In this document: one piece after another, positions 9,242 through 52,592 of the stretch
How positions within the stretch are numbered: the stretch's first letter is position 1
Layout of the letters: every line of letters starts with the position of its first letter
Source of the DNA: an uncultured Sphingomonadaceae bacterium
Lineage (GTDB): Bacteria > Pseudomonadota > Alphaproteobacteria > Sphingomonadales > Sphingomonadaceae
Length of the DNA: 57,950 nucleotides
Reading direction: 5' to 3'
NCBI GenBank assembly: GCA_903871605.1
Contig: CAIQHF010000023.1
Span: forward strand, 1-57,950
Made by a program: the position numbers and the translations under genes
Notes under the pieces: generated by a model
Told to the model about the DNA's origin: nothing
What the model saw: the letters and a program-made list of their open reading frames with translations, nothing else
The model's database searches: none

Positions 9242-9256
9242 GAGCGATAATCAACG
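9242..9256. promoter_or_regulatory. Degenerate IclR-type operator upstream of the MFS gene
   Basis: The site reads GAGCG ATAAT CAACG. The left half fits the GNNCG-N5-CGNNC pattern seen elsewhere, while the right half has two mismatches. It lies 43 nt before the MFS start on the minus strand. Confidence 0.4.
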
Positions 9257-9315
9257 ATCTCGTTTAAGGTTGCCGAGCAACGCCAGGCAGTGGCACGAAG
9301 CGATATTGTGACATA

Positions 9316-9345
9316 TTGACTCAGACGTTCGATATTGTCACTTAT
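9316..9345 (+). promoter_or_regulatory. Candidate promoter with degenerate operator
   Basis: A TTGACT box at 9316-9321 and ACTTAT 18 nt later form a weak sigma-70-type promoter for the oxidase at 9446. The degenerate operator GTTCG ATATT GTCAC (9327-9341) lies inside the spacer. A related sequence sharing CGATATTGT lies 26 nt upstream. Confidence 0.4.
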
Positions 9346-9445
9346 TCCAATGTCACGAGTTGGGATATTCCGGCTCGCGCGACGGAGCGGACGGCGTGAA
9401 CGGATATAGTCTCGGAGAACGACGGATTCTGCCGACAGGGCGCTC

Positions 9446-10639
9446 GTGATCTCCTTCGGTAGCGTCGACGAGGCGCGTGCGATTGCGCGGCGCCGGCTTC
9501 CCGCCCCGGTTTATCATTATGTCGAGGGCGGTAAGGAATCCGAGGCGACCGCGGCAATGAACGAACTGGCGTTCGGGCGGGTGCTGTTTGATGCGCCGAC
9601 CTGCCCTACGGCGATCGCACCCACTTGCGGGACGACGTTGCTCGGGCGCGAAGTCGGCATGCCGCTTGCGATCGCGCCGACCGGATTCGTCCGCATCATC
9701 CATCGCGACGGCGAACTGGGCGCGGCGCGCGCCGCGGCGCGCGCCAATGTGCCGATCGCGATCAGTACATGGTGCGGCGCGCCCGCGGGCGACGTCGTCG
9801 CGGCAAACCCCGATACCTGGTTCCAGCTTTACGTCATCAACGGGCGCGAGGGCGCGGGCTGGTGTATCGATCTGGCGCGAGAGGCCGGATGCCGCGTGCT
9901 CGTCGTCACCGCCGATATTGCGGGTGTGGTGCCCGCCGATCGCCGCTCGGCACCGCTGCCCGAGACGATGAGCCTCAAGGCCGCGCTGGCGTTCGCGCCC
10001 GAGGCGTGGAACCGGCCGCGCTGGCTGTGGTCGCTGCTCCGCGGCGGGCTCGCCATGCCCGCCCCCAATGCGCCACGGCGCCCGGACGGCGCGATGCTGC
10101 AGGTGCAGGATGCCGGCAAGCTGCTGGCGGCGACGCCGGTGAACTGGGAGGATCTCGCCTGGATCCGCGCGCGCTGGCCAGGGCCGCTCGTGCTCAAGAG
10201 CGTGATGCGCGCAGCCGATGCGCGCCGTGCGGTAGAGATCGGCGTCGACGGCGTGATCGTCTCGAACCACGGCGGCAAGGTGCTCGACGGCGTCCCCTCG
10301 ACGCTGTCCGTCCTGCCCGAAATCGTCGATGCCGTCGCGGATCGTGCCGAGGTCCTGCTCGACGGCGGGGTGCGGCGCGGCGCGGACATCGTCAAGGCGC
10401 GGGCACTCGGCGCCCGCGGGGTGCTGATCGGGCGTCCCTATCTCTGGGGTCTGGCGGCGGGCGGGGAAGCGGGCGTGTCGCGCGTGCTGTCGCTGTTCCG
10501 TCGCAGCATGGCCGGAACACTCGCCAATCTTGATCGGGCCGGAATCGATGCGATCGATCGCTCGGTGCTGCGGCCACTGCCCGATCCGGTCGCCTGGAAC
10601 ATGTTCGGTCGCGACGATCTGGCGCGGCGGCTCGCCTGA
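9446..10639 (+). CDS. FMN-dependent alpha-hydroxy-acid oxidase/dehydrogenase
   Basis: A 397-residue TIM-barrel flavoprotein of the glycolate oxidase/lactate dehydrogenase (LldD) family, oxidising a 2-hydroxy acid to a 2-keto acid. Seen are FQLYV near residue 130, the active-site block IVSNHGGK with the catalytic His near residue 274, and LLDGGVRRG for FMN phosphate. The family normally has Arg where this protein has Lys right after SNHGG; that Arg binds the substrate carboxylate. The start is GTG 9446. An SDR follows after 14 nt. The substrate may be a hydroxylated acid made by the neighbouring P450. Confidence 0.85.
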   Translation: MISFGSVDEARAIARRRLPAPVYHYVEGGKESEATAAMNELAFGRVLFDAPTCPTAIAPTCGTTLLGREVGMPLAIAPTGFVRIIHRDGELGAARAAARANVPIAISTWCGAPAGDVVAANPDTWFQLYVINGREGAGWCIDLAREAGCRVLVVTADIAGVVPADRRSAPLPETMSLKAALAFAPEAWNRPRWLWSLLRGGLAMPAPNAPRRPDGAMLQVQDAGKLLAATPVNWEDLAWIRARWPGPLVLKSVMRAADARRAVEIGVDGVIVSNHGGKVLDGVPSTLSVLPEIVDAVADRAEVLLDGGVRRGADIVKARALGARGVLIGRPYLWGLAAGGEAGVSRVLSLFRRSMAGTLANLDRAGIDAIDRSVLRPLPDPVAWNMFGRDDLARRLA

Positions 10640-10653
10640 GGAAGAAGCGGATC

Positions 10654-11412
10654 ATGCGGTTCGCGGGCAAGACGGTGCTGGTGACGGGGGCCGCTTCGGC
10701 ACGGGGGATCGGTTTCGCTACCGCCAAGCGGGTCAGCGAGGAGGGGGGGAAATTGATCCTGACCGATCTCGACGAGGATGGCCTCGCCGCGCGCGTCGCC
10801 GATCTCGCCGCGTTCGGCGTGGAGGCGCTTAGCGTGCGACACAACGTCACTGATGCAAGAGATTGGGACGCGGTGCTTGCGGAGGGGATCAATCGGTTCG
10901 GCCGGATCGACGGGCTGGTCAACAATGCCGGCATCACCATCCTAGCGCGGGTCGAGGATCTGGATCCGATCCAATGGCACCGGCAGATCGAGGTGAACCT
11001 CACCAGCGTCTATCTCGGTTGCCGGCTGCTGATCGCGCACTTTCGCGATCGAGGCGGCGGCGCGATCGTCAACGTCTCCTCTGCGGCCGGACTGGTCGGC
11101 ATGCGGCGCTGCACCGCCTATTCGGCAAGCAAGGGCGGTGTTAGGCTGATGACCAAGACGCTCGCGCTCGAATGCGGCCCCGACAATATCCGCGTGAATT
11201 CGGTGCATCCTGGGGTGACCGAAACCGACATGCAGAAGGTCGCGCGAGCCGACGCTTCGGGCGATTCGAAGGCTACCGCTGCCGCGGTCCCTCTCGGCCG
11301 GACCGCCGAACCGTACGAGCTGGGGGCGGCGATCGCATTCCTCCTCTCGGACGACGCGAGCTATATCACCGGTACCGAACTGATCGTGGACGGCGGCCTG
11401 ACAGCGCAGTGA
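10654..11412 (+). CDS. Short-chain dehydrogenase/reductase
   Basis: A 252-residue classical SDR. The nucleotide motif is GAASARGIG with two extra residues compared with the usual GxxxGxG loop. NNAG, serine in VNVSSAAG and the YSASK Tyr/Lys pair are intact, and IVDGG closes the sequence. It follows the FMN oxidase closely and precedes the P450 promoter. It most likely oxidises a secondary alcohol produced by P450 hydroxylation; this is inferred from context. Confidence 0.85.
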   Translation: MRFAGKTVLVTGAASARGIGFATAKRVSEEGGKLILTDLDEDGLAARVADLAAFGVEALSVRHNVTDARDWDAVLAEGINRFGRIDGLVNNAGITILARVEDLDPIQWHRQIEVNLTSVYLGCRLLIAHFRDRGGGAIVNVSSAAGLVGMRRCTAYSASKGGVRLMTKTLALECGPDNIRVNSVHPGVTETDMQKVARADASGDSKATAAAVPLGRTAEPYELGAAIAFLLSDDASYITGTELIVDGGLTAQ

Positions 11413-11478: not shown

Positions 11479-11493
11479 GTTCGAATATCGAAC
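11479..11493. promoter_or_regulatory. IclR-type operator before P450 operon
   Basis: GTTCGAATATCGAAC is a palindrome with perfect 6-bp arms, ending 22 nt before the P450 start. An AAAC half-site sits 4 nt upstream, forming the three-part arrangement seen at other promoters here. A TTGACA box lies at 11432-11437, with only a weak -10. Confidence 0.7.
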
Positions 11494-11515
11494 CCTTATA
11501 AGCGCGAGGATGCCG

Positions 11516-12697
11516 ATGGTCCAGAACCTGGAAAGCTTCGACATTCATGCGCCGAACGCACGCGAAGGGGCCGAGTGCTTGTGGGCACAGATGCGAGAGA
11601 TGGATGGGCTCCATCATAGCGACGCCTACGGCGGCTTTTACGTCGCGGCGCGCTACGAGGATACCATGGCGGTGCTGCTCAAGCCGACGCTCTACGCGTC
11701 CGGCGCAGGGATCACGTTGCCGCCACCTGATGGCGTGCGCAGCTTCCATATCCCCGCCGAGATCGATCCGCCCGCGCACCGTGAATATCGTGGACTTATG
11801 GCGCCTTTGCTCACCGCCAATCACGCCCGCGCGATGGAACCCGACATCCGGGCGCTCGCCGTCGATCTGATCGCGCGCATCCCGGCCGGCGAGAGCGTAG
11901 ATTTCGTCCGCGCTTTCGCCCGGCCTCTGCCGATCCTCGTTACGCTGGCGCTGATGGGATGCCCGCAAGGCGATGCCGACGCACTCGAGCAGATGGTCGA
12001 GGATCTGCATCACGAGATCGGGACCGGTGTCGCGACGGGCGCACCCGCGCGGCTGAAGGCCTATGCCGAGCAGGTCGTCGCCGAGCGCAGGAAGACCGCG
12101 ACCGATCCCGCTGCCGACATCGTTTCGTCGATCGTGCTCGGCCACGCCTTCGGCCGGCCGCTGACTCCGGACGAGCAGATGTCGATGGTGCGGCAGGTGC
12201 TGGTCGGCGGGTTCGACACGACCTCGATTGCGCTCGCGACGATGATGTGGTGGCTCGCCGGGCATCCGGACGAGGTCGCACGGTTGCGCGGCGACCCGGC
12301 CGCGATCGAGCTTGCCTGCGAGGAGATCGTCCGTTTCGCGTCGCCCTCGACCTATCTCAGGCGCGAGGTCACCGACGACACGGTGCTCGGTGGAACACTG
12401 CTCGCCAGGGGCGAGTCCGTGCTGGTGGCGTTCGGCGCCGCCAACCGCGATCCCGCCAAATTCGCCTGCCCCGAAGAGATTGTGGCGACGCGTAAGCCCA
12501 ATCCGCATCTCGGCTTCGGCGCTGGCCATCATCGCTGCGTCGGCTCATTCGTCGCCAAGGCGCAACTGCGTGTCGCGTTCGAGGAGATACTCGGCGCCTT
12601 CGCCGGCTTCTGCCTCGACACCGATCAACCGATCGAACATTCCACCGGGCTCGGCCAGGGGATCATGCGCTTGCCCATGATCTTCACCCGAGCCTGA
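11516..12697 (+). CDS. Cytochrome P450, CYP101-like
   Basis: A 393-residue soluble bacterial P450 expected to hydroxylate a hydrophobic substrate with electrons from the ferredoxin gene two genes downstream. Seen are the I-helix GGFDTTS, ExxR in EEIVR, and the heme loop FGAGHHRCVG with Cys near residue 341. The C-terminal pattern resembles P450cam. ATG 11516 is chosen because GCGAGG lies at the right distance; an ATG at 11510 is too close to it, and readings from 11432 would run through the promoter. It is first in the P450-crotonase-ferredoxin operon. Confidence 0.9.
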   Translation: MVQNLESFDIHAPNAREGAECLWAQMREMDGLHHSDAYGGFYVAARYEDTMAVLLKPTLYASGAGITLPPPDGVRSFHIPAEIDPPAHREYRGLMAPLLTANHARAMEPDIRALAVDLIARIPAGESVDFVRAFARPLPILVTLALMGCPQGDADALEQMVEDLHHEIGTGVATGAPARLKAYAEQVVAERRKTATDPAADIVSSIVLGHAFGRPLTPDEQMSMVRQVLVGGFDTTSIALATMMWWLAGHPDEVARLRGDPAAIELACEEIVRFASPSTYLRREVTDDTVLGGTLLARGESVLVAFGAANRDPAKFACPEEIVATRKPNPHLGFGAGHHRCVGSFVAKAQLRVAFEEILGAFAGFCLDTDQPIEHSTGLGQGIMRLPMIFTRA

Positions 12698-12718
12698 CCT
12701 CTCGCAAAGGATAGCCGC

Positions 12719-13525
12719 GTGCCTGCGATCGACCCCAGCCGATATGAATGGATCAAGATCGAGAAGAGCGACGATGGCATCGCCACGCTCACGCTCAACA
12801 ATCCGCGCCGCAAGAATGCGGTGTCGCGCCCGATGCACCGCGAGATCGAACGCATCTGGGACGATGTCGATATGGACGACGACATCCGCGTCGTCATCCT
12901 GACCGGCGAGGGCGGGGCGTTCTGCGCCGGCACCGATCTTTCGGTGCAGGACAAGGAGAATGAGAGCGGGCGCAAGGGGCGACCGCCCTTCCGTAGCGCG
13001 CGGCGGCTGTTCTGGGGGATGATGGACAGCGAAAAGCCGATCATCGCCAAGGTGCGCGGGCCGGCGTACGGCGTCGGCGTCAACATCGCGCTCGCCTGCG
13101 ACATGGTGATCGCCGCGGAGGGCGCGAAATTTTGCGATTCGCACGTCCGCATGGGGATCGCGCCGGGCGACGGTGGAGCCGCGTTCTTTCCGCTGCTGCT
13201 CGGCTTCCACCGGGCCAAGGAGTATCTGATGCTCGGCGAACCGATCGAGGCCTCCAAGGCGGCACAGATCGGGCTGATCAACTATTGCGTGCCGGATGCC
13301 GAACTCGACGATTTCGTCGATGGCTACGCCAAGCGGCTTGCGGCCGGGCCGCCGCTCGCCATTTCCTACGGCAAGATGTCGGTCAACCTGCTGCTCAAGC
13401 AGATGACTGCGGGCGCGTTCGAGGCGTCGCTCGCCTATGACCAGCTGACGCTGTTCACCGACGATCACGCCGAGGGCGCGCGCGCCTTCCTCGAGAAGCG
13501 CCAGCCCACCTTCAAGGGATCGTGA
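12719..13525 (+). CDS. Enoyl-CoA hydratase/isomerase-family protein (crotonase)
   Basis: A 268-residue crotonase starting at GTG 12719 behind AAAGGA. The oxyanion-hole block is [10 protein letters not shown] near residue 75. Where classical hydratases have Glu in a PExxLG motif this protein reads SHVRMG, so the first catalytic Glu is replaced by His; the second Glu position looks kept (AKEYLML). It may be an isomerase, hydrolase or C-C lyase rather than a simple hydratase. Sandwiched between P450 and ferredoxin, it belongs to the same operon. Confidence 0.85.
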
Positions 13526-13530
13526 TCGCG

Positions 13531-13848
13531 ATGGCAACGCTCAACGTCGTCCAGCGCGACGGCACGACAGTGGCTCTGGAAGGGGCGGCCGGGCATTCGG
13601 TGATGGAGATCATCCGCGACGGCGGTGTCGACGAGCTGCTGGCGCTGTGCGGTGGTTGTTGCAGCTGCGCCACCTGCCACGTCTATGTCGATCCCGGCTT
13701 CGCCGATCTCCTGCCCCCGATGGGCGAGGACGAGAACGACCTGCTTGACTCGACCGACCACCGCAGCGCGCGGTCGAGACTGTCGTGCCAGCTCGCCTTT
13801 TCGGCGGAGCTCAACGGCCTTACCGTCGAGATCGCGCCGGAGGACTGA
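13531..13848 (+). CDS. [2Fe-2S] ferredoxin, putidaredoxin type
   Basis: A 105-residue ferredoxin whose iron-sulfur ligands lie in [10 protein letters not shown] (C-x5-C-x2-C) with the fourth Cys in SCQLAF. It is the likely electron donor to the P450s here. Two additional cysteines sit inside the cluster loop where putidaredoxin has other residues. ATG 13531 gives a better ribosome-site spacing than GTG 13522. No ferredoxin reductase gene is in the window, so reduction must rely on one encoded elsewhere. Confidence 0.9.
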
Positions 13849-13859: not shown

Positions 13860-14678
13860 TTAGGGCAGGATCTCCGCGAGTTGGCCCTGCAGGTCGTACA
13901 AGGCCGGCAGGATCTCGCTCTCGATCCTCTGCTCCGAACTGCGCGAGACGTGCAGGCCGACGGTCACGGCCGCGACCGTCTTGCCGTCGAAGTTGCGGAT
14001 CGGCACCGCGACCGAACGCGAATTTGGCGCGACCTCTTGGTCGACGAACGAGAAACCCTGCCCACGAATGCGATTGAGCTCGGCGAGCAGCGCTTTCGTC
14101 GTGGTGAGCGTCTTGTCGGTCAGCTTCTGCCGATCGCTCGCGTCGATGATCTCTTTCGCCTGGTCCGACGGCAGGGCCGCGAGCAGGACTCGCCCGAGCG
14201 ATGTGCAATAGGCGGGAAGACGGCTGCCCGGATGCAATCCCGTGCCCATGATGTGATGGTGCGAGGAGCGCGCGATATAGACCACCTCGGTGCCGTCGAG
14301 CACGGCGGCCGAGCAGCTTTCGCGCAACCGGTCGGCAAGGGCGTCCAGCGCCGGCCGGATCAGTCGCGGCAGCGATGCGGCAAGATAGGACTGGCCGAGC
14401 TTGAGGATGCGCGGGGTGAGTTCAAAATAGCGATCGTCGGTCGTCGCATAGCGCCGTTCCACGAGCGTCAGCAGACAACGGCGCGCCGATGCGCGATCCA
14501 GTCCGCTCAGTCTTGCGACTTCGGCGATGGTCAAGCGGTCTCGACCTTGACCGAACGCTTCGATGACGGATAGCCCCTTGCCGAAGCCGCCCATCTTGTC
14601 GACATCGCGCAACACGCGGACCTCGGGCTTCGCCATTTCCGTTTCCGCTGCCGTTACAACCTGGACACCGCGGGCCAT
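13860..14678 (-). CDS. IclR-family regulator, PcaR/PcaU-like
   Basis: A 272-residue regulator: an N-terminal winged helix (LTIAEVARLSGLDRASARRC, residues ~49-68) and a C-terminal effector domain with GFSFVDQEVAPNSRSVAVPI as in PcaR/PcaU/PobR relatives. A GAGGGGG ribosome site precedes ATG 14678. The palindrome GTGCGATTATTGCAC lies 23 nt before the start, so it probably controls itself. The same palindrome type recurs before most operons of the island, making this protein the best candidate for the cluster-wide regulator. The effector is probably a pathway acid or CoA ester (inference). Confidence 0.85.
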   Translation of the reverse strand: MARGVQVVTAAETEMAKPEVRVLRDVDKMGGFGKGLSVIEAFGQGRDRLTIAEVARLSGLDRASARRCLLTLVERRYATTDDRYFELTPRILKLGQSYLAASLPRLIRPALDALADRLRESCSAAVLDGTEVVYIARSSHHHIMGTGLHPGSRLPAYCTSLGRVLLAALPSDQAKEIIDASDRQKLTDKTLTTTKALLAELNRIRGQGFSFVDQEVAPNSRSVAVPIRNFDGKTVAAVTVGLHVSRSSEQRIESEILPALYDLQGQLAEILP

Positions 14679-14701: not shown

Positions 14702-14716
14702 GTGCGATTATTGCAC
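14702..14716. promoter_or_regulatory. IclR-type operator before the IclR gene
   Basis: GTGCGATTATTGCAC lies 23 nt before the start of the IclR gene on the minus strand, between it and the GMC oxidoreductase stop. One half-site differs by one base from GNNCG-N5-CGNNC. Suggests autoregulation. Confidence 0.65.
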
Positions 14717-19615: not shown

Positions 19616-19630
19616 GTGCGTTAATCGCTC
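19616..19630. promoter_or_regulatory. IclR-type operator in divergent promoter
   Basis: GTGCGTTAATCGCTC lies between the divergent genes starting at 19585 (minus) and 19712 (plus). Read on the minus strand, a GAAC half-site sits 4 nt upstream, giving the same three-part layout as other sites. A weaker copy may overlap 19635-19649. Confidence 0.7.
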
Positions 19631-19711: not shown

Positions 19712-21229
19712 ATGAGCGTGGCTGACGAGATATACCGCTATCGCGTCGAGGGCGGCGTGGCCGTGCTCACGATCGATTCGCCGCCCGTCAATGCGCTCGG
19801 ACACAAGGTGCGGATCGCCTTGTGCGACGGTGTTGCCCGCGCGCTCGCCGACGACTCCGCCGCCGCACTCGTGTTGATCTGCGCGGGGCGTACCTTCTTC
19901 GCGGGTGCCGACGTTACCGAGATCGGCAAACCCATCCTGCCACCTCTGCTCGCCGACGTGATGGCGCAGTTCGAGGCCTCCACCAAGCCGATCGTCTCGG
20001 CGATGCACGGCACCGGGCTCGGCGGCGGTCTCGAACTCGCGCTCGCGGGCCATTATCGGGTGGCGGTGCCCTCGGCAGTGGTCGGCCTTCCCGAGGTCGC
20101 GCTCGGCCTGCTCCCCGGTGCCGGCGGCACGCAACGTGTACCGCGGCTGATCGGCGTTGCCGCGGCGATCGAAATGATCGGACTCGGACGCCATGTGAAG
20201 GCACCCGAGGCGCTTGATCTCGGTCTGATCGACGCGCTGGTGCCCGAAGGCGAGTTGGAGGCGTCTGCCATCGCATTCGCGCAGAAGGTCGTCCGGGACC
20301 GCGCACCGCTCCGCCGGCTGCGAGACCTGACGACGGATATCGGGCTCGACGAGGCGCGCGCGGTGTTCGAGCATTTCCGTGCCGCGCATCCCGAACTCTT
20401 CATAGGGGTGAAGGCGGCGGCCGGCGTGTTCGAGGCGATCGAGGCGGCGGTCGCGCTGCCGTTCGACGAGGGGCTGGAGCGCGAGCGCGCGATCTCGCGC
20501 AGGCTCGTCGCGAGTCCCGAATCTGCGGCACAGCGCCACCTCTTCTTCGCCGAGCGCACCGCCGCCAAATTCCCCGGGGCGGAGAAGGAGAAGCCACGCG
20601 CGGGGGTGGTCGAGATCGTCGAGGCCGCAGGCGACCGCGTCGCTTACGGCGCTGCGCTGGCGACCAGCGGAGCCGAGGTCGTCGTGGCGACGCGTTTCGT
20701 CGAGGCGCTCGACGAACTCGCGGCGGCAACGGGGCGGGCCGATGCGCTCGTCGGGATGGTCGTGACCGGGGGCATCGCCGAAATCGTCGTCGGTGCGAAG
20801 ACGGCACCGGCGGCAGCCCTTGCGGCCGCGGCCGCGGCCCGCAAGTCGGGGTATGCCACGATCTTCGTGTCGTCGGGACCGGGCTTGGTGGTCGGGCGTC
20901 TGGAGGCGGCGCTCGCCGTCAGCGTCGCGGCGCTGCAAGGCGAAGGCGTCGCACCGAGCGACATCGCCGCGACCGGGCGCGCCTTCGGCTTCCGCGACGC
21001 GTTGCTGCCCGTCGCCGACGGGGGCGCCAGCGAAGTGATAGAAGAAAGGCTGCTGCGGCCGATCCTCGCAGAAGCGCAGGCGATCGTCGCAGAGGGTGTC
21101 GCCAAGCGCGCGTCCGATGTCGATTTCGCGATGGTTCGTGCGGGTCTCTGGCCGCTGTGGCGCGGCGGTCCGGCGTTCATGGCGGAGCGCGTCGAGGCCA
21201 GCCCGGCCGCCCCCCCAATTCCCGCCTGA
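19712..21229 (+). CDS. FadJ-like protein: hydratase domain plus degenerate dehydrogenase part
   Basis: A 505-residue protein. Residues 1-190 are a crotonase domain with both glutamates in place (GLPEVALG E128, AAIEMI E154), so enoyl-CoA hydratase activity is plausible. The linker ending in FFAERTAAKFP matches FadB/FadJ. There the 3-hydroxyacyl-CoA dehydrogenase domain should start with GxGxxG; instead the sequence has VVEIVEAAGDRVAYGAAL, no such loop, and the domain is ~200 residues too short. The last 40 residues (WPLWRGGPAFMAE) again match FadJ. Probably a hydratase with a non-catalytic tail. A metallophosphoesterase gene follows. Confidence 0.8.
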   Translation: MSVADEIYRYRVEGGVAVLTIDSPPVNALGHKVRIALCDGVARALADDSAAALVLICAGRTFFAGADVTEIGKPILPPLLADVMAQFEASTKPIVSAMHGTGLGGGLELALAGHYRVAVPSAVVGLPEVALGLLPGAGGTQRVPRLIGVAAAIEMIGLGRHVKAPEALDLGLIDALVPEGELEASAIAFAQKVVRDRAPLRRLRDLTTDIGLDEARAVFEHFRAAHPELFIGVKAAAGVFEAIEAAVALPFDEGLERERAISRRLVASPESAAQRHLFFAERTAAKFPGAEKEKPRAGVVEIVEAAGDRVAYGAALATSGAEVVVATRFVEALDELAAATGRADALVGMVVTGGIAEIVVGAKTAPAAALAAAAAARKSGYATIFVSSGPGLVVGRLEAALAVSVAALQGEGVAPSDIAATGRAFGFRDALLPVADGGASEVIEERLLRPILAEAQAIVAEGVAKRASDVDFAMVRAGLWPLWRGGPAFMAERVEASPAAPPIPA

Positions 21230-26616: not shown

Positions 26617-26650
26617 GTGCGAATATGTAACGTATGTACGATCTACGACA
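26617..26650. promoter_or_regulatory. Four alternating IclR half-sites
   Basis: Four half-sites follow each other with 5-, 4- and 5-nt gaps: GTGCG, GTAAC, GTACG, CGACA. This ends 21 nt before the DUF35 start on the minus strand. The best fit to the island operator is the outer GTGCG and the GTACG/CGACA pair. Confidence 0.5.
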
Positions 26651-26696: not shown

Positions 26697-26738
26697 TTGA
26701 CAGACGCAGCGGTGCGGAAGATTGATCGAATAACGACG
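26697..26738 (+). promoter_or_regulatory. Promoter and operator candidate for the kinase operon
   Basis: TTGACA lies at 26697-26702 with a poor -10 17 nt later. GATCG AATAA CGACG at 26724-26738 fits the operator pattern with one mismatch; it is 32 nt before the kinase start. Confidence 0.4.
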
Positions 26739-26770
26739 GTACGAGCTATATCCGAACGAATGGGAGAGCG

Positions 26771-27805
26771 ATGGCGGACGAAGCGTGGCGGCACGGAGTC
26801 GATCTCGACACGCTGGCGGCGTGGATGGACGGCAAGGGACTGGGGAGTGGCGCGATCGAGCGGCCGCGATTGCTCGCGGGCGGCACGCAGAATCTGATCC
26901 TGGCTTTTGAGCGCGATGGTCGCGGTTTCGTGCTGCGTCGTCCGTCGCTTCAACACCGCCCGGCGGCGAACGAGACGATGCGCCGCGAGATGCGCATGCT
27001 TGGCGCGATCGCCGGAACCGACGTGCCGCATCCCCGCTTGATCGCCGCGTCACCCGCAGAGGATGTGCTCGGCACGGCCTTCTACCTGATGGAGCCGATT
27101 GACGGCTTCAACGTCACGGTGGGGATGCCAGCGCTCCATGCCGGGGATCCCGCGATCAGGCGCGCCATGGGCTTCGCGCTGGTCGACGGGATCGCGCGGC
27201 TCGCGCGGGTCGATCATGCGGCGGTCGGGCTAGCCGATTTCGGTCGCACCGAAGGCTATCTCGAGCGCCAGGTCGGCCGCTGGCGGAGGCAGCTCGACTC
27301 CTATGTCGAGCATGTCGGCTGGCCCGGCCCGGGCGTCCTGCCCGGCGTCGAGGCGGTGGGCGCCTGGCTCGAAGCGAACCGACCGGGCAGCTTCACGCCG
27401 GGCATCCCGCACGGCGACTATCATCTCGCCAACGTGCTCTATCGCAACGACGGGCCGCAGCTCGGCGCGATCGTCGATTGGGAGTTGGCGACGATCGGCG
27501 ATCCCCTGATCGATCTCGGCTGGGTGCTTACCACATGGCCGCGCGCGGGCGATCCGACCTCGATGAAGATCGAGCTGTGGGACGGCTTCCCCGCCGCCGA
27601 CGAACTGCTCGCTTATTATCGCGACCACAGCGACCGCGATCTCTCGGCGATCGACTGGTACGTCATGCTCGCCTGCTACAAGCTCGGCATCCTCCTCGAG
27701 GGCACGCATGCGCGGTCGTTCGCGGGCAAGGCCGACAAGGCGATGGGCGCGCGATTCCATGCCCGCTCGGTCGCGCTGTTCGAACGCGCGCAGACGCTTA
27801 TTTGA
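26771..27805 (+). CDS. APH-family phosphotransferase (ACAD10/11- or LvaA-like acyl-CoA kinase)
   Basis: A 344-residue kinase-fold protein: ATP-binding strands with FVLRRPS near residue 57, the catalytic loop HGDYHLANVLY near 215, and the metal-binding IVDWELATIGDP near 235. Relatives are the kinase domain of ACAD10/ACAD11 and LvaA of levulinate catabolism, which phosphorylate 4-hydroxyacyl-CoA so that a dedicated acyl-CoA dehydrogenase-like enzyme can remove the phosphate. An ACAD11-like protein is encoded at 39455. An SDR and a thioesterase follow in the same operon. Antibiotic resistance is unlikely in this setting. Confidence 0.75.
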   Translation: MADEAWRHGVDLDTLAAWMDGKGLGSGAIERPRLLAGGTQNLILAFERDGRGFVLRRPSLQHRPAANETMRREMRMLGAIAGTDVPHPRLIAASPAEDVLGTAFYLMEPIDGFNVTVGMPALHAGDPAIRRAMGFALVDGIARLARVDHAAVGLADFGRTEGYLERQVGRWRRQLDSYVEHVGWPGPGVLPGVEAVGAWLEANRPGSFTPGIPHGDYHLANVLYRNDGPQLGAIVDWELATIGDPLIDLGWVLTTWPRAGDPTSMKIELWDGFPAADELLAYYRDHSDRDLSAIDWYVMLACYKLGILLEGTHARSFAGKADKAMGARFHARSVALFERAQTLI

Positions 27806-29944: not shown

Positions 29945-29978
29945 GAACGATATTCGCCGTAATGAGCGACTATCGAAC
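29945..29978. promoter_or_regulatory. Tandem IclR-type operators, divergent promoter
   Basis: Two operators 4 nt apart: GAACGATATTCGCCG (29945-29959, one mismatch) and GAGCGACTATCGAAC (29964-29978, full match). They lie between the BKACE gene and the SDR at 30024 and may serve one direction each. Confidence 0.65.
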
Positions 29979-30836: not shown

Positions 30837-30851
30837 GTGCGATAAACGCTC
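30837..30851. promoter_or_regulatory. IclR-type operator before MFS gene
   Basis: GTGCGATAAACGCTC, a full match, ends 25 nt before the MFS start. A GAAC half-site lies 4 nt upstream, as at other promoters of the island. Confidence 0.7.
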
Positions 30852-30876: not shown

Positions 30877-32085
30877 ATGACCGCGATCCGCGAAAGTCGC
30901 GCGCAGGCTGTCGTCAGCGTCGCAGCGATCTGCTGCGGCAATGCCGGGCCGGCGCTAGTCTATGACGCGCTGGCGCCCGTCCTGCCTCATATCGCGGCAC
31001 ATTTTGGTGGAGGCTCAAGCGGCGAGGGGATCGCGCAGGCCTCCGTCGGCTTGGCGGTCGTCGGTATGGGATTGGCGGGGCTGTTCGCGGCGCCGGCGGT
31101 AGCGAGATTTGGGTTCCGATCGACGTTGAACGCCGGCTGGCTCCTGTTCGGGATCGCCGGATCGGCCGGGCTGGCGCTCGATTCCGCGCCGTTGCTGCTG
31201 GCCACTCGTCTGCTGCTCGGCCTCATGGGCGGGATGCTGATGGCGGCGGCCGGCCTGGGCATCGCCGCGCGATACGAGCCGGCACGCCGCCCGCGAATGA
31301 TGGGGGTCAATCTTGCGGTCGGGGCCTTCACCGCGATCCTGTTCCTCTTCGTCGCGGCCGCCGTGGCCAAGATATCGTGGCGCGCGCCGTTTGCATTGCA
31401 CGGGGGGCTCGCATTGGTCGGCCTGCTGCTGGTCGCTGGCGCGCGGCTACCCGACAGCGCAACGGCGCCGAGCGTCGCGGCTACACGGGAAGGCTTATGG
31501 CGCGCGTTGCTGCCGGCCTTGCCGGCTTACGGACTGCTGCTGGTGATGGTCGTCACGGGTAATCTCTTCAACGTCCAGATCGTCTTCCTGCTCGCCTCGC
31601 GCGGGATCGCCGACCCTGGAGAACTGGCAACGATCTGCGCGATCATGCCGATGGCGCTCGGCGTGACGAACATGGTGTTCGGCAACGTCGAGGCTCGGCT
31701 CGGCCTCGCCCGGACGATCATCGTCGCATTCGCGATGTTCGTCGTCGGCACGACCTTGTGTGCGATATTGCCATCTCTGGTGACGACGGGCGCGGGCATG
31801 ATAGCGGGCGGTATCGCGCTCGGGCTGTGCACGCCGTCTGCGATGACCCTCATCATGCGCGGCGTCGCGCCCGATCGGATGCCGACCGCGCTCAGCTTCG
31901 CGACGACGCTCATCTATGTCGGCGGTGGCGCGGCGCCGCTCGTCTATGTGCTGCTACGCGGTGTCGTCGGGTATGGCGGCATCTATCTTTGCGCCGGCGG
32001 CGTCATCTTTGCCGGTCTCGTCGTCTGGTCTATGTCGCGGCTTGTCCCGCATACCCGTCCCCCGATCTATCGAAGGAGTGCTTGA
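30877..32085 (+). CDS. MFS transporter
   Basis: A 402-residue inner-membrane transporter with about 12 hydrophobic helices and short loops rich in Arg. The N-terminal part reads AICCGNAGPALVYDALAPVL, which suits the MFS_1 group. ATG 30877 follows GAGGAG at 10 nt and lies downstream of a promoter and operator, which argues against any longer form. Its stop overlaps the next ATG (TGATG). It probably carries the pathway substrate or an acid derived from it. Confidence 0.8.
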   Translation: MTAIRESRAQAVVSVAAICCGNAGPALVYDALAPVLPHIAAHFGGGSSGEGIAQASVGLAVVGMGLAGLFAAPAVARFGFRSTLNAGWLLFGIAGSAGLALDSAPLLLATRLLLGLMGGMLMAAAGLGIAARYEPARRPRMMGVNLAVGAFTAILFLFVAAAVAKISWRAPFALHGGLALVGLLLVAGARLPDSATAPSVAATREGLWRALLPALPAYGLLLVMVVTGNLFNVQIVFLLASRGIADPGELATICAIMPMALGVTNMVFGNVEARLGLARTIIVAFAMFVVGTTLCAILPSLVTTGAGMIAGGIALGLCTPSAMTLIMRGVAPDRMPTALSFATTLIYVGGGAAPLVYVLLRGVVGYGGIYLCAGGVIFAGLVVWSMSRLVPHTRPPIYRRSA

Positions 32086-32858
32086 TGAAGCTCGACGGAA
32101 TTTCTGCGGTCGTCACCGGTGGCGCCAGCGGGCTGGGCGAGGCGACCGCGCGCGCTCTGGCCGGGCAAGGTGTGAAGGTCGCGATCTTCGATCTGAACCG
32201 CGAGAAGGGGGAAGCGGTGGCCTCCGCGCTCGGCGGCGTGTTCTGCGAGGTCGACATCACCAGCGACGCCTCGGTTGATGCCGGTCTTGCCGCGGCGCGC
32301 GCCGCGAACGGGCAGGAGCGCATTCTCGTCGGTTGCGCGGGGCGCGGCAACACCTTCAAGACCGCGCAGCGCGACCGTGAGACGGGTGCGATCACCCATT
32401 TCCCAATCGACCAGTTCGAGAAGGTCGTGCTGCTCAACCTCGTCGGCACCTTCCGCATGATCGCCAAGTCGGCGGCAGGGATGATGACGCTCGATCCGCT
32501 CAACGACGACGGCGAGCGCGGCGCGATCGTCAACACCGCGTCGGTCGCAGCGGTCGATGGGCAGGCGGGGCAGGCGGCCTATGCCTCGTCCAAGGCGGGG
32601 ATTGTCGGGTTGACGCTGCCGATCGCCCGCGATCTCCGGCGCGAGGGCATCCGCGTCAACACCATCCTGCCCGGCATCATGGACACGCCGCTCTTCGCCA
32701 CCGCCAAGCCCGAATTACGCAAGCAACTCGGCGACAGCGTGCCTTTCCCCCGCCGCCTGGGCCACGCAGAGGAATTTGCCAGCCTCGCGATCGAGATGTG
32801 CCGCAACAGCTATTTCAACGGCGAGCATGTCCGCCTCGACGGCGCGATCCGCATGTGA
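32085..32858 (+). CDS. 3-hydroxyacyl-CoA dehydrogenase-like SDR (HSD10 type)
   Basis: A 257-residue SDR resembling type-2 3-hydroxyacyl-CoA dehydrogenases (HSD17B10): GGASGLG loop, VGCAGRG in place of NNAG, a long insertion before helix 5 that includes PLNDDGERGAIVNTASVAA, and the YASSK pair. Such enzymes oxidise 3-hydroxy-2-methylacyl-CoA or steroid-like alcohols. ATG 32085 is coupled to the MFS stop and GGAGTG lies just upstream. The next frame, a broken crotonase, overlaps its stop. Confidence 0.85.
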   Translation: MKLDGISAVVTGGASGLGEATARALAGQGVKVAIFDLNREKGEAVASALGGVFCEVDITSDASVDAGLAAARAANGQERILVGCAGRGNTFKTAQRDRETGAITHFPIDQFEKVVLLNLVGTFRMIAKSAAGMMTLDPLNDDGERGAIVNTASVAAVDGQAGQAAYASSKAGIVGLTLPIARDLRREGIRVNTILPGIMDTPLFATAKPELRKQLGDSVPFPRRLGHAEEFASLAIEMCRNSYFNGEHVRLDGAIRM

Positions 32859-33596
32859 GCGACCGCGCGTTCGTCTCCGTGCGGCGCGAAGGACCGCTGC
32901 TGATCGTCACGATCGAGCGGCCCCAGGTGATGAACGCGCTGCATGCGCCTGCGCATCACGAGATGGCGGCGATATTCGACGCCTTCGCTGACAACGATGG
33001 GCTCTGGGTCGCGATCGTCATCGGCGCCGGGCGATCGCGCTTTCTGCGCGGGCAATGATCTCAGGTATCAGGCCGCGCACGGTCTGGAAGAACTGCCGCC
33101 GTCGGGCTTTGCCGGGCTGGCGCGGCGGTTCGAGCTTGCCAAGCCGGTGATCGCGGCGGTCAACGGCGTCGCGATTGGGGGGCAGGTTCGAGACCGCGCT
33201 CGCCTGCGACATCGTCGTCGCGGGCGAACAGGCGCGCTTCGCGCTGCCCGAGCCCAAGGTGTGCATGGCCGCGCTCGCCGGAGGGCTGCTGCGCCTTCGC
33301 GCGACGATCGGACTCAAGCGCGCGATGCCGCTGATCCTGACCGGCCGCGCGGTCTCGGCCGCCGAAGGCGCACGGCTCGGCTTCGTGTCCGAGGTCGTCG
33401 GATCGGGAGCCGAACTGGAGCACGCGTCCGTGCCGCCAAGCAGGTCGCGCAGCGCGGTATGGACTTGCCGCTGGTCGAGGCGATGACGGCGCAATTCGGC
33501 TGGCCCGCGGTCGTCGCGATGCGCGCGTCCCCCGATTGTGTCGAAGGTCCACGCGCCTTCGCCGAAAAGCGGCCGCCCCGCTGGAGCGACCGCTAG
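32855..33596 (+). pseudogene. Frameshifted crotonase (enoyl-CoA hydratase) gene
   Basis: The three frames together spell one crotonase of ~245 residues starting at GTG 32855: LLIVTIERPQVMNALHAP, then AFCAGNDLRYQ in a second frame, FETALACDIVVAGE and LPEPKVCMAALAGG in a third, and AAKQVAQRGMDLPL back in the second. At least three indels are needed: near 33030 (GGG), near 33178 (six G), and near 33425. The first two are in G runs, so sequencing error is possible; three in one gene argues for decay or poor local accuracy. Confidence 0.75.
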
Positions 33597-35656: not shown

Positions 35657-35680
35657 CACCGTCCCTCCTGAATTCACTGT

Positions 35681-35695
35681 GTGCGTTAAGCGACC
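35681..35695. promoter_or_regulatory. IclR-type operator for SDR-P450 operon
   Basis: GTGCGTTAAGCGACC is a full match. On the minus strand a CGAGC half-site lies 4 nt upstream. It ends 24 nt before the TTG start chosen for the SDR. Confidence 0.65.
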
Positions 35696-35862
35696 ATAAG
35701 CTCGTACTTCGCGCATTAATAGAATGGACGACGATCCTGTCAATCAACCGGCTGCGAGCGGGGGCGGGGCGCGGTCGCCGGCGAACCATCCGTGCGACCG
35801 GCCGGCCGCCACGCGCTTGACATCGGCCCGAACATTGGCAACGGAGTATATATAGAACGGAT

Positions 35863-35877
35863 GGGCGATTATCGCCC
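35863..35877. promoter_or_regulatory. IclR-type operator before thiolase operon
   Basis: GGGCGATTATCGCCC, extendable to a 19-bp palindrome, ends 24 nt before the thiolase GTG. A GAAC half-site lies 4 nt upstream. TTGACA stands at 35817 and TATATA at 35847, but the spacing between them is too long for a standard promoter. Confidence 0.75.
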
Positions 35878-35901: not shown

Positions 35902-37128
35902 GTGGCCGAAGTCTGGATCATCGACAGCGTGCGCACGCCGCGGGGAGCCGGGAAGGCAGAGGGCGCGATCGCGTCGGTTCATCCGCAAAGGCTTTTCTCG
36001 CAGCTTCTCGTCGCGCTCGCCGAGCGGACCGGCCTCGATCCGGTGGACGTCGACGACGTGATCGCGGGCGTCAACACGCAGCAGGGCAAGCAGGGGCTCA
36101 ACCTCGCCCGGATGGCGCTGCTCGACGCTGGCTATCCGGCGACGGTGCCTGGCTTCTCGCTCGATCGTTTCTGTGGATCGGGGCTGACCGCCATGAACCT
36201 CGCGGCGATGGGCATCCTGTCGGGCGCGCAGGACGTCGTCGTCGCGGGCGGCGCCGAAATGATGTCGCACACGCGCACACTTTCGCGCGAATTCATGATG
36301 GACTCGAACAATCTCGCGCTCCGCAAGAAGATCCCGCAACCGCATCAAGGGCTTTGCGCCGACCTGATCGCGACGCTCGAAGGTTTTACGCGCGAGGAGA
36401 TGGATGCTCTCGCGCTTGCAAGCCAGCAGCGCGCTGACCGGGCGATCCGCGAGGGGCGCTTCGCCAGGTCGCTGATACCCGTCAAGGATGAGAATGGCGC
36501 GACGCTGCTCGATCGTGAGCAATTCCCGCGCCCGCAGACGACCGCGGAAGGGCTCGCGAACCTCAAACCCGCCTTTGCGAGCTTCATGGACCGCGAGATC
36601 GACGGCGAGGGGACCACCTATGGCTCTCTGCTGCGCCTGGTCTATCCCGATACTGCGATCGACTATGTCCACACCGCCGCGACCAGCTCGGGCGTGGTCG
36701 ACGGCGCAGGGGCGCTGCTGCTCGCTTCGCCCGCTTATGCCAAGGCGCACGGGCTCAAACCCCGCGCGCGTATACGCGGCGTGGCGACCGTCGGCGACGA
36801 TCCGACGCTGATGCTCAACGGCCCGGTGCCGGCAGCGCGAAAGGTTCTTGAAAAAGCAGGAATGACGATCGACGACATCGATCTGTTCGAGGTGAACGAG
36901 GCGTTCGCGGTTGTCCCCGCCAAGTTCATGCGCGATCTCGATCTCGATCCCGAGACGGTCAACGTCAATGGCGGCGCGATGGCGCTCGGCCATCCGATTG
37001 GCGCGACCGGTGCGATCCTCGCAGGCACGCTGCTCGACGAACTCGAGCGGCAGGACAAGAGCGTTGGCCTCGTCACCATGTGCGCCGCGGGCGGCCTTGC
37101 ACCCGCCGTGATCATCGAGCGCGTCTGA
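35902..37128 (+). CDS. Acetyl-CoA acetyltransferase-type thiolase
   Basis: A 408-residue thiolase cleaving 3-ketoacyl-CoA with CoA. The nucleophile is in DRFCGSGLTAM near residue 90, the His in GHPIGATGA near 360, and the second Cys in TMCAAGG near 390, so all catalytic residues are present. GTG 35902 follows GAGAGGATGGAG. It leads the plus-strand operon thiolase, hydrolase, broken SDR, SDR, ACAD and is the only Cys-containing thiolase in the window. Confidence 0.9.
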   Translation: MAEVWIIDSVRTPRGAGKAEGAIASVHPQRLFSQLLVALAERTGLDPVDVDDVIAGVNTQQGKQGLNLARMALLDAGYPATVPGFSLDRFCGSGLTAMNLAAMGILSGAQDVVVAGGAEMMSHTRTLSREFMMDSNNLALRKKIPQPHQGLCADLIATLEGFTREEMDALALASQQRADRAIREGRFARSLIPVKDENGATLLDREQFPRPQTTAEGLANLKPAFASFMDREIDGEGTTYGSLLRLVYPDTAIDYVHTAATSSGVVDGAGALLLASPAYAKAHGLKPRARIRGVATVGDDPTLMLNGPVPAARKVLEKAGMTIDDIDLFEVNEAFAVVPAKFMRDLDLDPETVNVNGGAMALGHPIGATGAILAGTLLDELERQDKSVGLVTMCAAGGLAPAVIIERV

Positions 37129-37984: not shown

Positions 37985-38699
37985 ATGACGCTCGCCGGAC
38001 GGACCATTCTTGTCACCGGCGGCAATTCGGGGATCGGGCTGGCGACGGCGCTCCGCTTCGCGCGGATCGCAATGCAGCCGCTTGCGAGGCGATCGAGGCG
38101 CTGGGTGTCCGCTGCACCACCTTCGCAGGGGACGTCACCGACGAGCATGACGTGCGCGAGGCGGTGGCGGGCACGGTCGCGGCATTCGGTGGCCTCGATT
38201 ATGCCTTCAATTGCGCGGCCTGTCACAATTGGTGACTCCGATCGGGGCGCTGTCGATCGACGAATATGCCGCGCTGATGGACGTCAACGCGCGCGGCACC
38301 TCCCTTGCGATGAAGCATGAGATACCGGCGATGCGCGCCCGGGGCGGCGGGGCGATCTGCAACTGTGCGTCCGCCGCCGGGCTGATCCCCAGCGCGCTCC
38401 AGGTCGCCTATGCCGGCGCGAAGTTCGCGGTCGTCGGCCTGACACGCGGGGCGGCGCTCGAAGTGGCGAAGTACAATATCCGCGTCAACGTCGTCTGCCC
38501 GGCGCGACGACCGGCGAGATGTGGCTGGACTTTGCCGCTGCGCATCCCGACCGCGCGGCGACTGCGCTCTCCAAGCACCCGCTCGGCCGAGTTGGCGAGA
38601 AGGAGGGAGGTCGCGGACGCGGTGCTGTTCCTCTGCCGCGACGCGACCTTCACCACCGGCCATGCCTTCCCCGTCGATGGGGGGCGGACGGCGGGATGA
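37985..38699 (+). pseudogene. Broken SDR gene with several indels
   Basis: An SDR reading frame split over several frames: LVTGGNSGIGLATALRFAR (37985 frame), then ACEAIEALGVRCTTFAGDV in a second, then IDEYAALMDVNARGTS and VAYAGAKFAVVGL in a third, EMWLDFAAAHPDRAA in a fourth segment and FTTGHAFPVDGG at the end. About eight residues after the first segment are missing altogether. This is more than simple sequencing error at one site, so the gene is probably dead unless local read quality is poor. Confidence 0.75.
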
Positions 38700-42154: not shown

Positions 42155-42169
42155 GAGCGATAAACGCAC
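42155..42169. promoter_or_regulatory. IclR-type operator, divergent region
   Basis: GAGCGATAAACGCAC is a full match, located 52 nt before the SnoaL start on the minus strand; a GCGC half-site lies 4 nt upstream on the plus strand. Confidence 0.65.
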
Positions 42170-42244: not shown

Positions 42245-42259
42245 GAGCGTTAATCGCAC
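42245..42259. promoter_or_regulatory. IclR-type operator before ACAD operon
   Basis: GAGCGTTAATCGCAC is a full match with GAAC 4 nt upstream. It ends 24 nt before a TTG with a very good ribosome site (GAGAGGAGGG) and 97 nt before the first ACAD start. TTGACA stands at 42199. Confidence 0.7.
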
Positions 42260-49783: not shown

Positions 49784-49840
49784 ATCTTCCAATCGAGCGG
49801 GATCACTTGACGCCTCCGAAAACGGGTAAGACCAAAGTTT

Positions 49841-49881
49841 CTGAGCCAAGATCCGATCCTGACGATCGGGTCTTGGCTCAG
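49841..49881. terminator. Bidirectional terminator hairpin
   Basis: An 18-bp stem with a single G-T wobble around a 5-nt loop: left arm begins CTGAGCCAAGA and the right arm ends TCTTGGCTCAG. It sits between the convergent ends at 49783 and 49888. Only short T tracts flank it. Confidence 0.75.
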
Positions 49882-49887
49882 CAGCGG

Positions 49888-50631
49888 CTAGGCAATCACC
49901 ATACCGCCGTCGACGGGCATCGAAATGCCCGTGGTAAAGGTCGCGCCGTCGGACAGCATCCAGATTGCCGCGGACGCAATCTCGGACGGGTCCGCCATCC
50001 GCCCCATTGGCCGCGTTCGCGTCTTGGCAAGCGCGGGGTTGGCGTTGCTCGATCCCATCGCAAGCGGGGTCACGGTCGCGCCGGGCAGGATTGCGTTGAC
50101 GCGGATATTCTGCTCGGCGCAGTCCATCGCCGCGCCGCGGACCATGCCGTCGACGCCGGCTTTCGAGCCGCAATAGTCCGAGCTCCAGGGCAGCCCCTTG
50201 ATCGCCGCCGCGGACGAGATCGCCACCACCGATCCATGCTTGTGCGGCCACATCGCCGCCACCTCATATTTCAGGCAGAAGAACATGCCGCGCAGGTTGA
50301 TACGATGGACGCGGTCCCATTCGTCGATCGAAATCTCGTGAATTGGCTTGGAACAGCCGGCGATCCCAGCACAATTGATCGCACCATGGAGCTGGCCGTA
50401 AGTGGAGACCGCTGCCTCGACCATCGCGCGCACACTGTCCTCTTCCGAAACGTCCGTTCTGACGAACTGCGCTTCGCCGCCTGAGTTGCGGATCGACGCG
50501 GCCATCGTCTCGCCCGCGTCGCTCAGGTCGGCGATCGTCACCGACCAACCATCTGCCACCAGCCCTTCGACGCAGGCCTTGCCGATCCCGCTTGCTCCGC
50601 CCGTTACGATTGCGGATCGTGTTGTGCTCAT
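49888..50631 (-). CDS. Short-chain dehydrogenase/reductase
   Basis: A 247-residue classical SDR: GGASGIG cofactor loop, INCAGIAG in place of NNAG, serine in AISSAAA, YCGSK. ATG 50631 follows GGAGAACGCG and is 48 nt from the operator pair shared with the divergent ALDH; a reading from 50658 lacks a ribosome site. It may oxidise an alcohol whose product is used by the adjacent ALDH or by the ACAD operon. Confidence 0.85.
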   Translation of the reverse strand: MSTTRSAIVTGGASGIGKACVEGLVADGWSVTIADLSDAGETMAASIRNSGGEAQFVRTDVSEEDSVRAMVEAAVSTYGQLHGAINCAGIAGCSKPIHEISIDEWDRVHRINLRGMFFCLKYEVAAMWPHKHGSVVAISSAAAIKGLPWSSDYCGSKAGVDGMVRGAAMDCAEQNIRVNAILPGATVTPLAMGSSNANPALAKTRTRPMGRMADPSEIASAAIWMLSDGATFTTGISMPVDGGMVIA

Positions 50632-50679
50632 CGCGTTCTCCAGTTCAGCTCTTGCCACCTGTGATGCGATGGCTAAAGA

Positions 50680-50713
50680 TGGCGATAATTGAACGCAAGG
50701 GCGATTATCGAAC
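50680..50713. promoter_or_regulatory. Four alternating IclR half-sites, divergent promoter
   Basis: Two operators 4 nt apart: TGGCGATAATTGAAC (50680-50694) and GGGCGATTATCGAAC (50699-50713). Together they give four half-sites with 5-, 4- and 5-nt gaps. They lie between the SDR at 50631 and the ALDH at 50742. A weak TTGCCA/TAAAGA promoter for the ALDH ends at 50679. Confidence 0.7.
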
Positions 50714-50741
50714 TTCTACGCCCGCAGCCCCGGAGAGGCAG

Positions 50742-52235: not shown

Positions 52236-52365
52236 TACTGGGAGGCGCCCAGCGTTCGTCCTCTTTGCGCCACTTTGCGGGCCATGCATTCGAATGGAAC
52301 GCGCCGGCTATAGAGCGGCGCGCTCTGTGGTACTGCGCCTGTAGGACCAATACCAAATTAGCGTT

Positions 52366-52380
52366 GTGCGTATACCGCAC
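52366..52380. promoter_or_regulatory. IclR-type operator upstream of TonB receptor
   Basis: GTGCGTATACCGCAC is a perfect 15-bp palindrome followed after 4 nt by a GATCG half-site. It lies in the 376-nt gap between the ALDH and the TonB receptor, 231 nt before the receptor start. The rest of the gap holds the promoter at 52528 and no gene. Confidence 0.6.
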
Positions 52381-52527
52381 ACAAGATCGTTATTGCACAT
52401 TCGTGGTCGACCGTGTCGTCGCGGACACACCATTGCTGAGCCCCGCAGTGACAATCGTCGATAATTAGGGCGACATATCAGTAAGATAGGCCTGATGTGC
52501 GTGACGTCCAGTGCGGACATCGAGTAA

Positions 52528-52556
52528 TTGACAGTATCCGACACTAAGAATATCAA
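52528..52556 (+). promoter_or_regulatory. Strong sigma-70-like promoter of TonB receptor
   Basis: TTGACA, a 17-nt spacer and TATCAA make the best promoter in the window. The predicted start of transcription is about 52563, so the operator at 52578 is just downstream and would block elongation or initiation. Confidence 0.7.
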
Positions 52557-52577
52557 GTGGACGCACAACGAACGGAT

Positions 52578-52592
52578 GGGCGAATACCGCCC
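52578..52592. promoter_or_regulatory. IclR-type operator in TonB receptor leader
   Basis: GGGCGAATACCGCCC is a full match, preceded by GAAC 4 nt upstream and ending 19 nt before the receptor start. The surrounding AACGGATG also occurs before the thiolase and P450 operators. Confidence 0.7.

Follow-up and report, generated by a model that had tools for sequence, protein, structure and literature searches.

The window analysed here, a whole stretch of 57,950 nucleotides (G000:C23:1-57950), comes from a draft genome of an uncultured Sphingomonadaceae bacterium (4.28 Mb, 54 contigs) and makes up 1.4% of it. Domain searches of the window proteins identify a catabolic cluster that spans 7.8 to 54.9 kb. 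It encodes two P450s (P450cin and the CYP101 group being their best solved relatives), a ferredoxin, many short-chain dehydrogenases/reductases (SDRs), GMC and aldehyde dehydrogenases (ALDHs), a CoA ligase, a DUF35/lipid-transfer-protein (Ltp) pair (the best solved relative of the Ltp member is 6ok1), five acyl-CoA dehydrogenases (ACADs; for the one tested, the best relatives are 6wy9, 6wy8 and 4x28), enoyl-CoA hydratases (ECHs), a thiolase, BKACE, HpcH, major facilitator superfamily (MFS), Rieske and NMO proteins and a TonB-dependent receptor. The cluster also contains an iclR regulator gene, and a 15-bp palindrome recurs in front of its operons. Based on sequence comparison, we predict (at a probability of roughly 0.8) that the IclR protein, a putative repressor of the PcaR lineage, uses this palindrome as its operator and would act over eleven strong and two weaker operator regions. 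The regulator gene and the candidate operators are listed below, with scores from a position weight matrix (PWM), positions of the putative -35 box TTGAC given relative to the operator, and "partner" denoting a second, degraded palindrome 19 bp upstream.

13860..14678, minus strand: iclR regulator gene, 272 aa, PcaR/PcaU/PobR subfamily (Pfam HTH_IclR and IclR_C; TIGR02431)
14702..14716, minus strand: putative operator before iclR, GTGCAATAATCGCAC, 23 nt before the ATG; no partner
11479..11493, plus strand: putative operator of the P450-ECH-ferredoxin operon (11516-13848); TTGAC at -47
19616..19630, minus strand: putative operator of the NMO-ECH-ALDH-GMC operon (19585-14751); partner at -19 (8.3), TTGAC at -47
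29945..29978, no strand assigned: putative shared tandem operator (29945 weak, 29964 strong, from the site sequences) between BKACE (minus) and SDR (plus) genes
30837..30851, plus strand: putative operator of the MFS-SDR operon, 25 nt before the ATG at 30877; TTGAC at -38 (an outlier), no partner
35681..35695, minus strand: putative operator of the SDR-P450 (CYP101-like) operon, about 21 nt before the GTG at 35659; TTGAC at -48
35863..35877, plus strand: putative operator of the thiolase-hydrolase-SDR-ACAD operon, 24 nt before the GTG at 35902; TTGAC at -46
42155..42169, minus strand: putative operator of the SnoaL-SDR operon; no partner, no TTGAC
42245..42259, plus strand: putative operator of the ACADx4-Rieske-NMO-HpcH operon; TTGAC at -46
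50680..50713, no strand assigned: putative tandem operator (50680 weak, 50699 strong, from the site sequences) between SDR (minus) and ALDH (plus) genes
52578..52592, plus strand: putative operator of the TonB-dependent receptor gene, 19 nt before the ATG at 52612; TTGAC at -50
26617..26650, minus strand: putative weak tandem operator (26617 and 26636; PWM 9.8 and 1.8) of the DUF35-Ltp-CoA ligase-ECH-ECH operon
26724..26757, plus strand: putative weak tandem operator (26724 and 26743; PWM 9.6 and 10.4) of the APH-SDR-thioesterase operon; TTGAC at -46 of 26743
52366..52380, no strand assigned: isolated palindrome 231 nt upstream of the TonB gene (PWM 16.6); no partner, no TTGAC
9242..9341, no strand assigned: two weak motif-like sites (9242 and 9327; PWM 9.2 and 9.8) between MFS (minus) and FMN dehydrogenase (plus) genes; no partner, no placed TTGAC

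The strong regions predicted from these sites are 11479, 14702, 19616, 29945/29964, 30837, 35681, 35863, 42155, 42245, 50680/50699 and 52578, and the weaker ones are 26724/26743, with its TTGAC at -46, and 26617/26636. The operator at 19616 also precedes the divergent ECH/HAD gene at 19712, and in the divergent gaps at 29945/29964 and 50680/50699 one tandem can serve both genes. The GTG start at 35659 is preceded by AGGAGGG. The palindrome at 52366 might be a looping or second-promoter site, while 9242 and 9327 are doubtful as operators. An earlier description of this DNA, made without database searches (the sequence-only reading), had listed eleven complete GNNCG-N5-CGNNC sites and eight partial ones. 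The eleven are all present where it placed them and the eight fit with one or two mismatches, though its inclusion of 9242 and 9327 is unsupported, as they lack a partner or well-placed -35 box. Its description of most sites as ending 19-30 nt before a start codon applies to seven of the eleven, the distances being longer for 29964 (45), 42155 (52), 42245 (97) and 52366 (231).

The bare pattern GNNCG-N5-CGNNC is not enriched in the window (113 matches compared to 124 expected) and was rejected as evidence because of this chance-level frequency. The enrichment signal is instead due to the AT-rich centre. Fourteen of the 113 matches have 4-5 A/T mid-positions, and 12 of these lie in gaps and two in coding sequence; the expectation for gaps, from shuffled gap sequence, is 0.28 (gaps total 2,235 bp of the cluster). 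One of the 12, at 35700, was missing from the earlier list. These counts use a hand-set gene map in which starts were trimmed at 11514, 19590, 30870, 35650, 50742 and 52640, among others. By this map the eleven complete sites are in promoter gaps, as the sequence-only reading had held, but an automatic caller, which agrees for 35681, 50699 and 52578, places 11479, 19616 and 30837 inside open reading frames (with longer starts or an antisense frame). Fair ribosome-binding sequences and starts directly follow the sites that the caller puts inside these frames.

Sequences flanking the sites, which were not used in site finding, were compared for 24 strong sites oriented towards their genes, ten from the window and 14 from the sphingomonad relatives described below. 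The 24 were drawn from 12 window sites and 16 distinct relatives' sites with a PWM score of at least 14; four were left out, namely 29964 and 52366 (orientation not clear), L082:19964, which is a tandem partner, and L083:15456, located between divergent genes. The weak sites of the window and the iclR sites in two of the relatives score below 14 and fall outside this count, repeats from overlapping loci (L082:20, L162) were counted once, and L053 and L132 represent one genome. A half-box (consensus like ATA-GAAC) was found upstream, not downstream, of the palindrome at a gap of exactly 4 bp, with GAAC at -8 in 11 of the 24 flanks. Its mean score was 1.29 at this gap and -6.7 at the next best gap, and the maximum over 500 flank shuffles was -6.16; the signal holds separately in the window and relatives' sites. 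A degraded full palindrome at -19 scored above 0 in 16/24 flanks, as opposed to at most 2/24 at any other tested offset from -30 to -15. Rather than the single 15-bp operator proposed previously, the functional unit therefore appears to be a tandem, consisting of a strong 15-bp palindrome and a degraded copy exactly 19 bp upstream. Of the partial sites in the earlier list, 29945 and 50680 are degraded upstream partners 19 bp from a strong site with respect to the right-hand genes, and 26636 and 26724 are upstream members of weak 19-bp pairs. The main member of the second pair, 26743, which serves the gene at 26771, had been missed.

TTGAC occurs in 16 of the 24 upstream flanks, 15 times at -45 to -51 and once at -38. 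The usual spacing between promoter boxes is 17 bp. When the transcription start is deduced from TTGAC and this spacing, it would lie close to the upstream palindrome, with the strong one at approximately +12 to +27. A location at or just after the deduced start suits a repressor.

Genome-wide, a stricter pattern, GDKCGNWWWNCGMHC, matches 47 places, ten of them in the window (P = 7e-10 for ten of 47 in 1.4% of the genome), while a reversed-pattern control matches 24. Because GDKCGNWWWNCGMHC was drawn up from window sites, the window count is favoured, and the flanks and other genomes provide the comparisons free of this bias. All ten window matches are in gaps by the hand map (7/10 by the automatic caller), compared to nine of the 37 outside the window, where the other 28 are coding (the same caller, which relies on codon usage learned from the window, was used for these 37). 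All nine outside gap sites lack both a positive gap-4 box and TTGAC within 60 bp on either side; three outside coding sites carry a box or TTGAC, by chance. The exact pattern thus revealed no regulon outside the window, although it could overlook weaker sites in the rest of the genome. In six genomes of the same genus that lack a close IclR, the strict pattern still has 20-36 matches each, and raw genome counts alone therefore say little; it is position and context that carry the argument. The sequence-only reading had proposed a genome-wide scan asking if the motif is equally common in coding DNA, and the outcome favours the regulon.

The window protein belongs to the IclR family (HTH_IclR, E-value: 6.8e-14; IclR_C, E-value: 1.7e-35) and scores 297.9 bits against TIGR02431, the NCBIfam model for PcaR/PcaU/PobR (cut-off 284.75). 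It is the only protein of the genome above this cut-off, the next best scoring 99.1 bits. It had been called the only IclR gene, which is correct for the window but not for the genome, in which there are 11 HTH_IclR matches. In the presumed recognition helix, residues D61, R62, A63, R66 and R67 are invariant among the window protein, its three close orthologues and three rhizobial ones. The site before iclR suggests autoregulation; such a site is clear in two of four genomes (the window counted) and weak in the other two.

Three sphingomonads carry close orthologues (71-76% identity), namely Novosphingobium sp. ERN07, Sphingobium jiangsuense and Sphingomonas formosensis; G011 and G300, apparently one genome, were counted once. 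In 11 stretches around these orthologues there are 16 distinct sites with a PWM score of at least 14, and all 16 are in gaps. A site precedes the ACAD2 homologue in all three relatives (L163:1294, L083:4916, L172:9126), TonB homologues in two (L163:10490, L172:18302), the ALDH2 homologue in Novosphingobium ERN07 (L163:6647) and the thiolase (L172:18106), NMO (L132:6542) and SnoaL (L172:15514) homologues in S. formosensis. Each relative also has a site before iclR (PWM 20.6, 10.6 and 8.5). The outer stretches L164, L169, L170 and L174, which contain hardly any cluster genes or none, have no sites of this strength. The sequence data thus show the sites themselves, their tandem phasing, their placement relative to TTGAC and start codons, and their co-occurrence with iclR. 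The earlier proposal that one IclR protein controls about eleven transcription units agrees with the predicted eleven strong and two weaker regions and with the way in which the motif accompanies iclR in relatives. S. formosensis encodes a second protein above the TIGR02431 cut-off (L184, G300:C4:117044-117772) with GTACGATTATCGATC about 58 bp upstream, and cross-talk is therefore possible in that species. An IclR gene of 38% identity from a further genome of the family (L056, G238) has GTGCGATAATCGCAC about 125 bp upstream and a weaker palindrome 19 bp on.

Rhizobial orthologues, 47-55% identical to the window IclR, form its sister group in both a 47-row tree and an 18-row set (100/99 in each). 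Of 51 rhizobial loci returned, 47 were taken in a count of the 400 bp before the gene, and 41 of these have a site with a PWM score of at least 12 (0.016 expected each), although these loci are related and not independent; the four loci left out of the count (L133, L135, L138 and L140) also carry the site. The rhizobial sites are mostly paired, 18 bp apart (41 pairs). At L090 (Rhizobium tropici), the sole rhizobial locus with its neighbours typed, the gene is found near pcaI, pcaJ, pcaF, pobA, pcaD and two protocatechuate dioxygenase subunit genes. As negative controls, four Pseudonocardiaceae IclR relatives (36-39% identity) were scanned, and none has a site of at least 9 bits in the 350 bp upstream. 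Several other PcaR-like relatives carry such an upstream palindrome, which is therefore a family trait.

We propose that two IclR dimers would bind the two palindromes, with centres 19 bp apart, the strong one downstream and the degraded one upstream. At promoters with a TTGAC -35 box, the pair would cover the region from approximately the transcription start to about +27, such that bound protein may block initiation or promoter escape. A pathway compound may bind the C-terminal domain and release the protein. The eleven strong and two weaker operator regions would then open together, giving uptake (TonB receptor and MFS), oxidation (P450, Rieske, SDR, GMC and ALDH) and CoA-dependent breakdown, and iclR would probably repress itself.

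Several observations weigh against repression of the cluster by this protein through these sites. Eight of the 24 promoters lack TTGAC and eight of the 24 sites lack a positive partner, as does the window's own iclR site; the transcription start is deduced from the -35 box, and -10 boxes are poorly conserved. The iclR site is weak in two relatives (the PWM scores of 10.6 and 8.5 above), and S. jiangsuense shows no genome-wide motif excess (25 matches, with 37 for the reversed-pattern control), and its cluster contains just two strong sites. Six of the 47 rhizobial loci have no near site: in four it is 572-1821 bp upstream, in one it is weak and in one there is none. Since the palindrome is common to other PcaR-like proteins, the motif alone cannot name the regulator. 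Finally, some IclR proteins activate, PbaR of Sphingobium reportedly among them.

The main rival is that the same IclR protein is an activator at these operators and is required for expression. PobR and PcaU, members of the same subfamily, are activators. The extra half-site also resembles those of PcaU, PobR and HmgR (PMC8222616). Against this, TTGAC 45-51 bp upstream of the operator in 15/24 flanks puts the operator at or after the start, where a repressor would be expected, and we regard activation as possible but considerably less likely than repression. It is far less probable that another regulator binds the motif and that iclR is a mere neighbour. Two TetR genes are nearby (3443-4072 and 7168-7845), palindromes are also used by TetR proteins, and the genome has ten further HTH_IclR matches. 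However, neither TetR protein has a match in the 11 stretches of relatives, in which IclR does match, the same motif is found at the rhizobial iclR orthologues, and no other protein of the genome passes the TIGR02431 cut-off; the motif also fits the published PcaR/PcaU consensus (PMC8222616). The chance-level frequency of the bare pattern could be taken to mean that the motif is a by-product of composition or promoter sequence with no regulator at all, but its palindromy, 19-bp phasing, restriction to gaps and recurrence across genera make this barely credible. In 12 shuffles of the window there was a mean of one match at a PWM score of at least 14, compared to the 12 observed (which also trained the matrix).

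The operator resembles those of the PcaR/PcaU/PobR family, for which the accessible text of PMC8222616 gives the consensus GTNCG-N5-6-CGNAC, palindromes WWWRKTCGATWATCGSAYRRW for PcaR and TTTGTTCGATWATCGMACAMA for PcaU, tandem sites spaced by 18-22 bp and, in the case of PcaU, PobR and HmgR, an additional external half-site. The window operator fits this consensus in a degenerate form, GDKCG-N5-CGMHC, with a 19-bp partner in 16/24. Its likeness to the sites of Pseudomonas putida PcaR and Acinetobacter PcaU and PobR lies in the palindrome and, for PcaU, PobR and HmgR, in the external direct half-site; it differs in having A/G/T at position 2 and G/T at position 3 of the half-site, whereas theirs has a fixed T at position 2 (GTNCG) in the same excerpts. 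The pathway also differs, in that related regulators govern the degradation of aromatic acids. Compared to the rhizobial PcaR-type proteins (L090, beside pcaIJF), the window IclR shares the sister-group relationship, the recognition-helix residues and the palindrome before the gene, but the pair spacing is 19 bp here and 18 bp there, and L090 sits among pca and pob genes while the window has 11-13 predicted operator regions and no pca enzymes were found in it. The parts of PMC13273656 available describe PheR, an IclR repressor of Sphingobium sp. SHPJ-2 with a 44-bp footprint (-21 to +23) that is released by phenanthrene. PheR is likewise a sphingomonad IclR with a similar layout across the start (by footprint there, by a deduced start here), but its core motif is GCAACG and one phenanthrene operon is described in that text as its direct target. 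EdcR of Caenibius tardaugens, the repressor of an estrogen-degradation cluster (PMC8700777, seen in part), is similar as a sphingomonad catabolic cluster repressor but belongs to the TetR family and uses another operator; it was rejected as the nearest sphingomonad steroid regulator because it is a TetR protein. No description of the regulon was found in the literature searched, of which the predicted-regulon lists in the supplements of PMC8222616 were not part. The protein family, the class of operator and the tandem grammar are all established, and the regulon is a new place for this grammar.

The enzyme families of the cluster suggest a substrate that is alicyclic, terpenoid-like or steroid-side-chain-like. 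No pca (protocatechuate/beta-ketoadipate) enzymes are among the families found in the window, and the cluster thiolase scores 278.6 against the pcaF profile (cut-off 597). The earlier designation as PcaR-like is thus apt for the protein lineage (TIGR02431) and the DNA code but not for the pathway, and PcaR proper, defined by neighbouring or regulated pca genes, is not what the window contains. KshA_C (3-ketosteroid 9alpha-hydroxylase) has no match in the genome, and a 9,10-seco steroid degradation cluster was rejected for this reason; above-cut-off matches are present in all three sphingomonad relatives. Naming the substrate from plasmid relatives of the Ltp aldolase was also abandoned, as the Delftia and Burkholderia records (2/12) sit in uninformative CoA-transferase/Rieske neighbourhoods. 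A resin-acid dit cluster with an IclR regulator is known, but a literature search for it gave nothing usable.

The cluster is probably accessory. A close IclR (>70% identity) is present in one other of 298 family genomes and in none of six same-genus genomes, and the GC content of the window is 0.645, compared to 0.667 in 206 kb sampled elsewhere in the genome. An IS3-type transposase pair (HTH_Tnp_1 and rve domains) is located at 5976-7147, the left cluster edge; taken together with the lack of a close IclR in the six congeners searched, this fits an acquired cluster. Two genes inside the putatively regulated operons, encoding an enoyl-CoA hydratase (32855-33596) and an SDR (37985-38699), appear to be split across frames by a frameshift or assembly error. 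Between the convergent HpcH and SDR genes, an inverted repeat at 49800-49880 resembles, by eye, a two-way terminator.

On a broader scale, we lean slightly towards a scenario in which a regulator of the PcaR lineage retained the ancestral DNA code (palindrome, tandem and recognition helix) but exchanged its effector, an acid of an aromatic pathway, for a compound of an alicyclic, terpenoid-like or steroid-side-chain-like pathway. It would thereby have gained control of a travelling cluster that has 11-13 operator regions and occurs in several sphingomonad genera, each operon being preceded by the same fixed cassette (TTGAC at about -47, a degraded palindrome at -19 and the strong palindrome). 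The cassette is a candidate for a biosensor, and the identity of the inducer would also point to the substrate. The rhizobial pca-linked orthologue and the window IclR would form a clean pair for the study of effector change with the DNA code kept. The finding assigns one putative switch to a large uncharacterized catabolic cluster common to four sphingomonads (this bacterium, ERN07, S. jiangsuense and S. formosensis), and its interest, if true, is that a protein of the PcaR lineage has been recruited to a pathway that does not look aromatic, its DNA code being retained.

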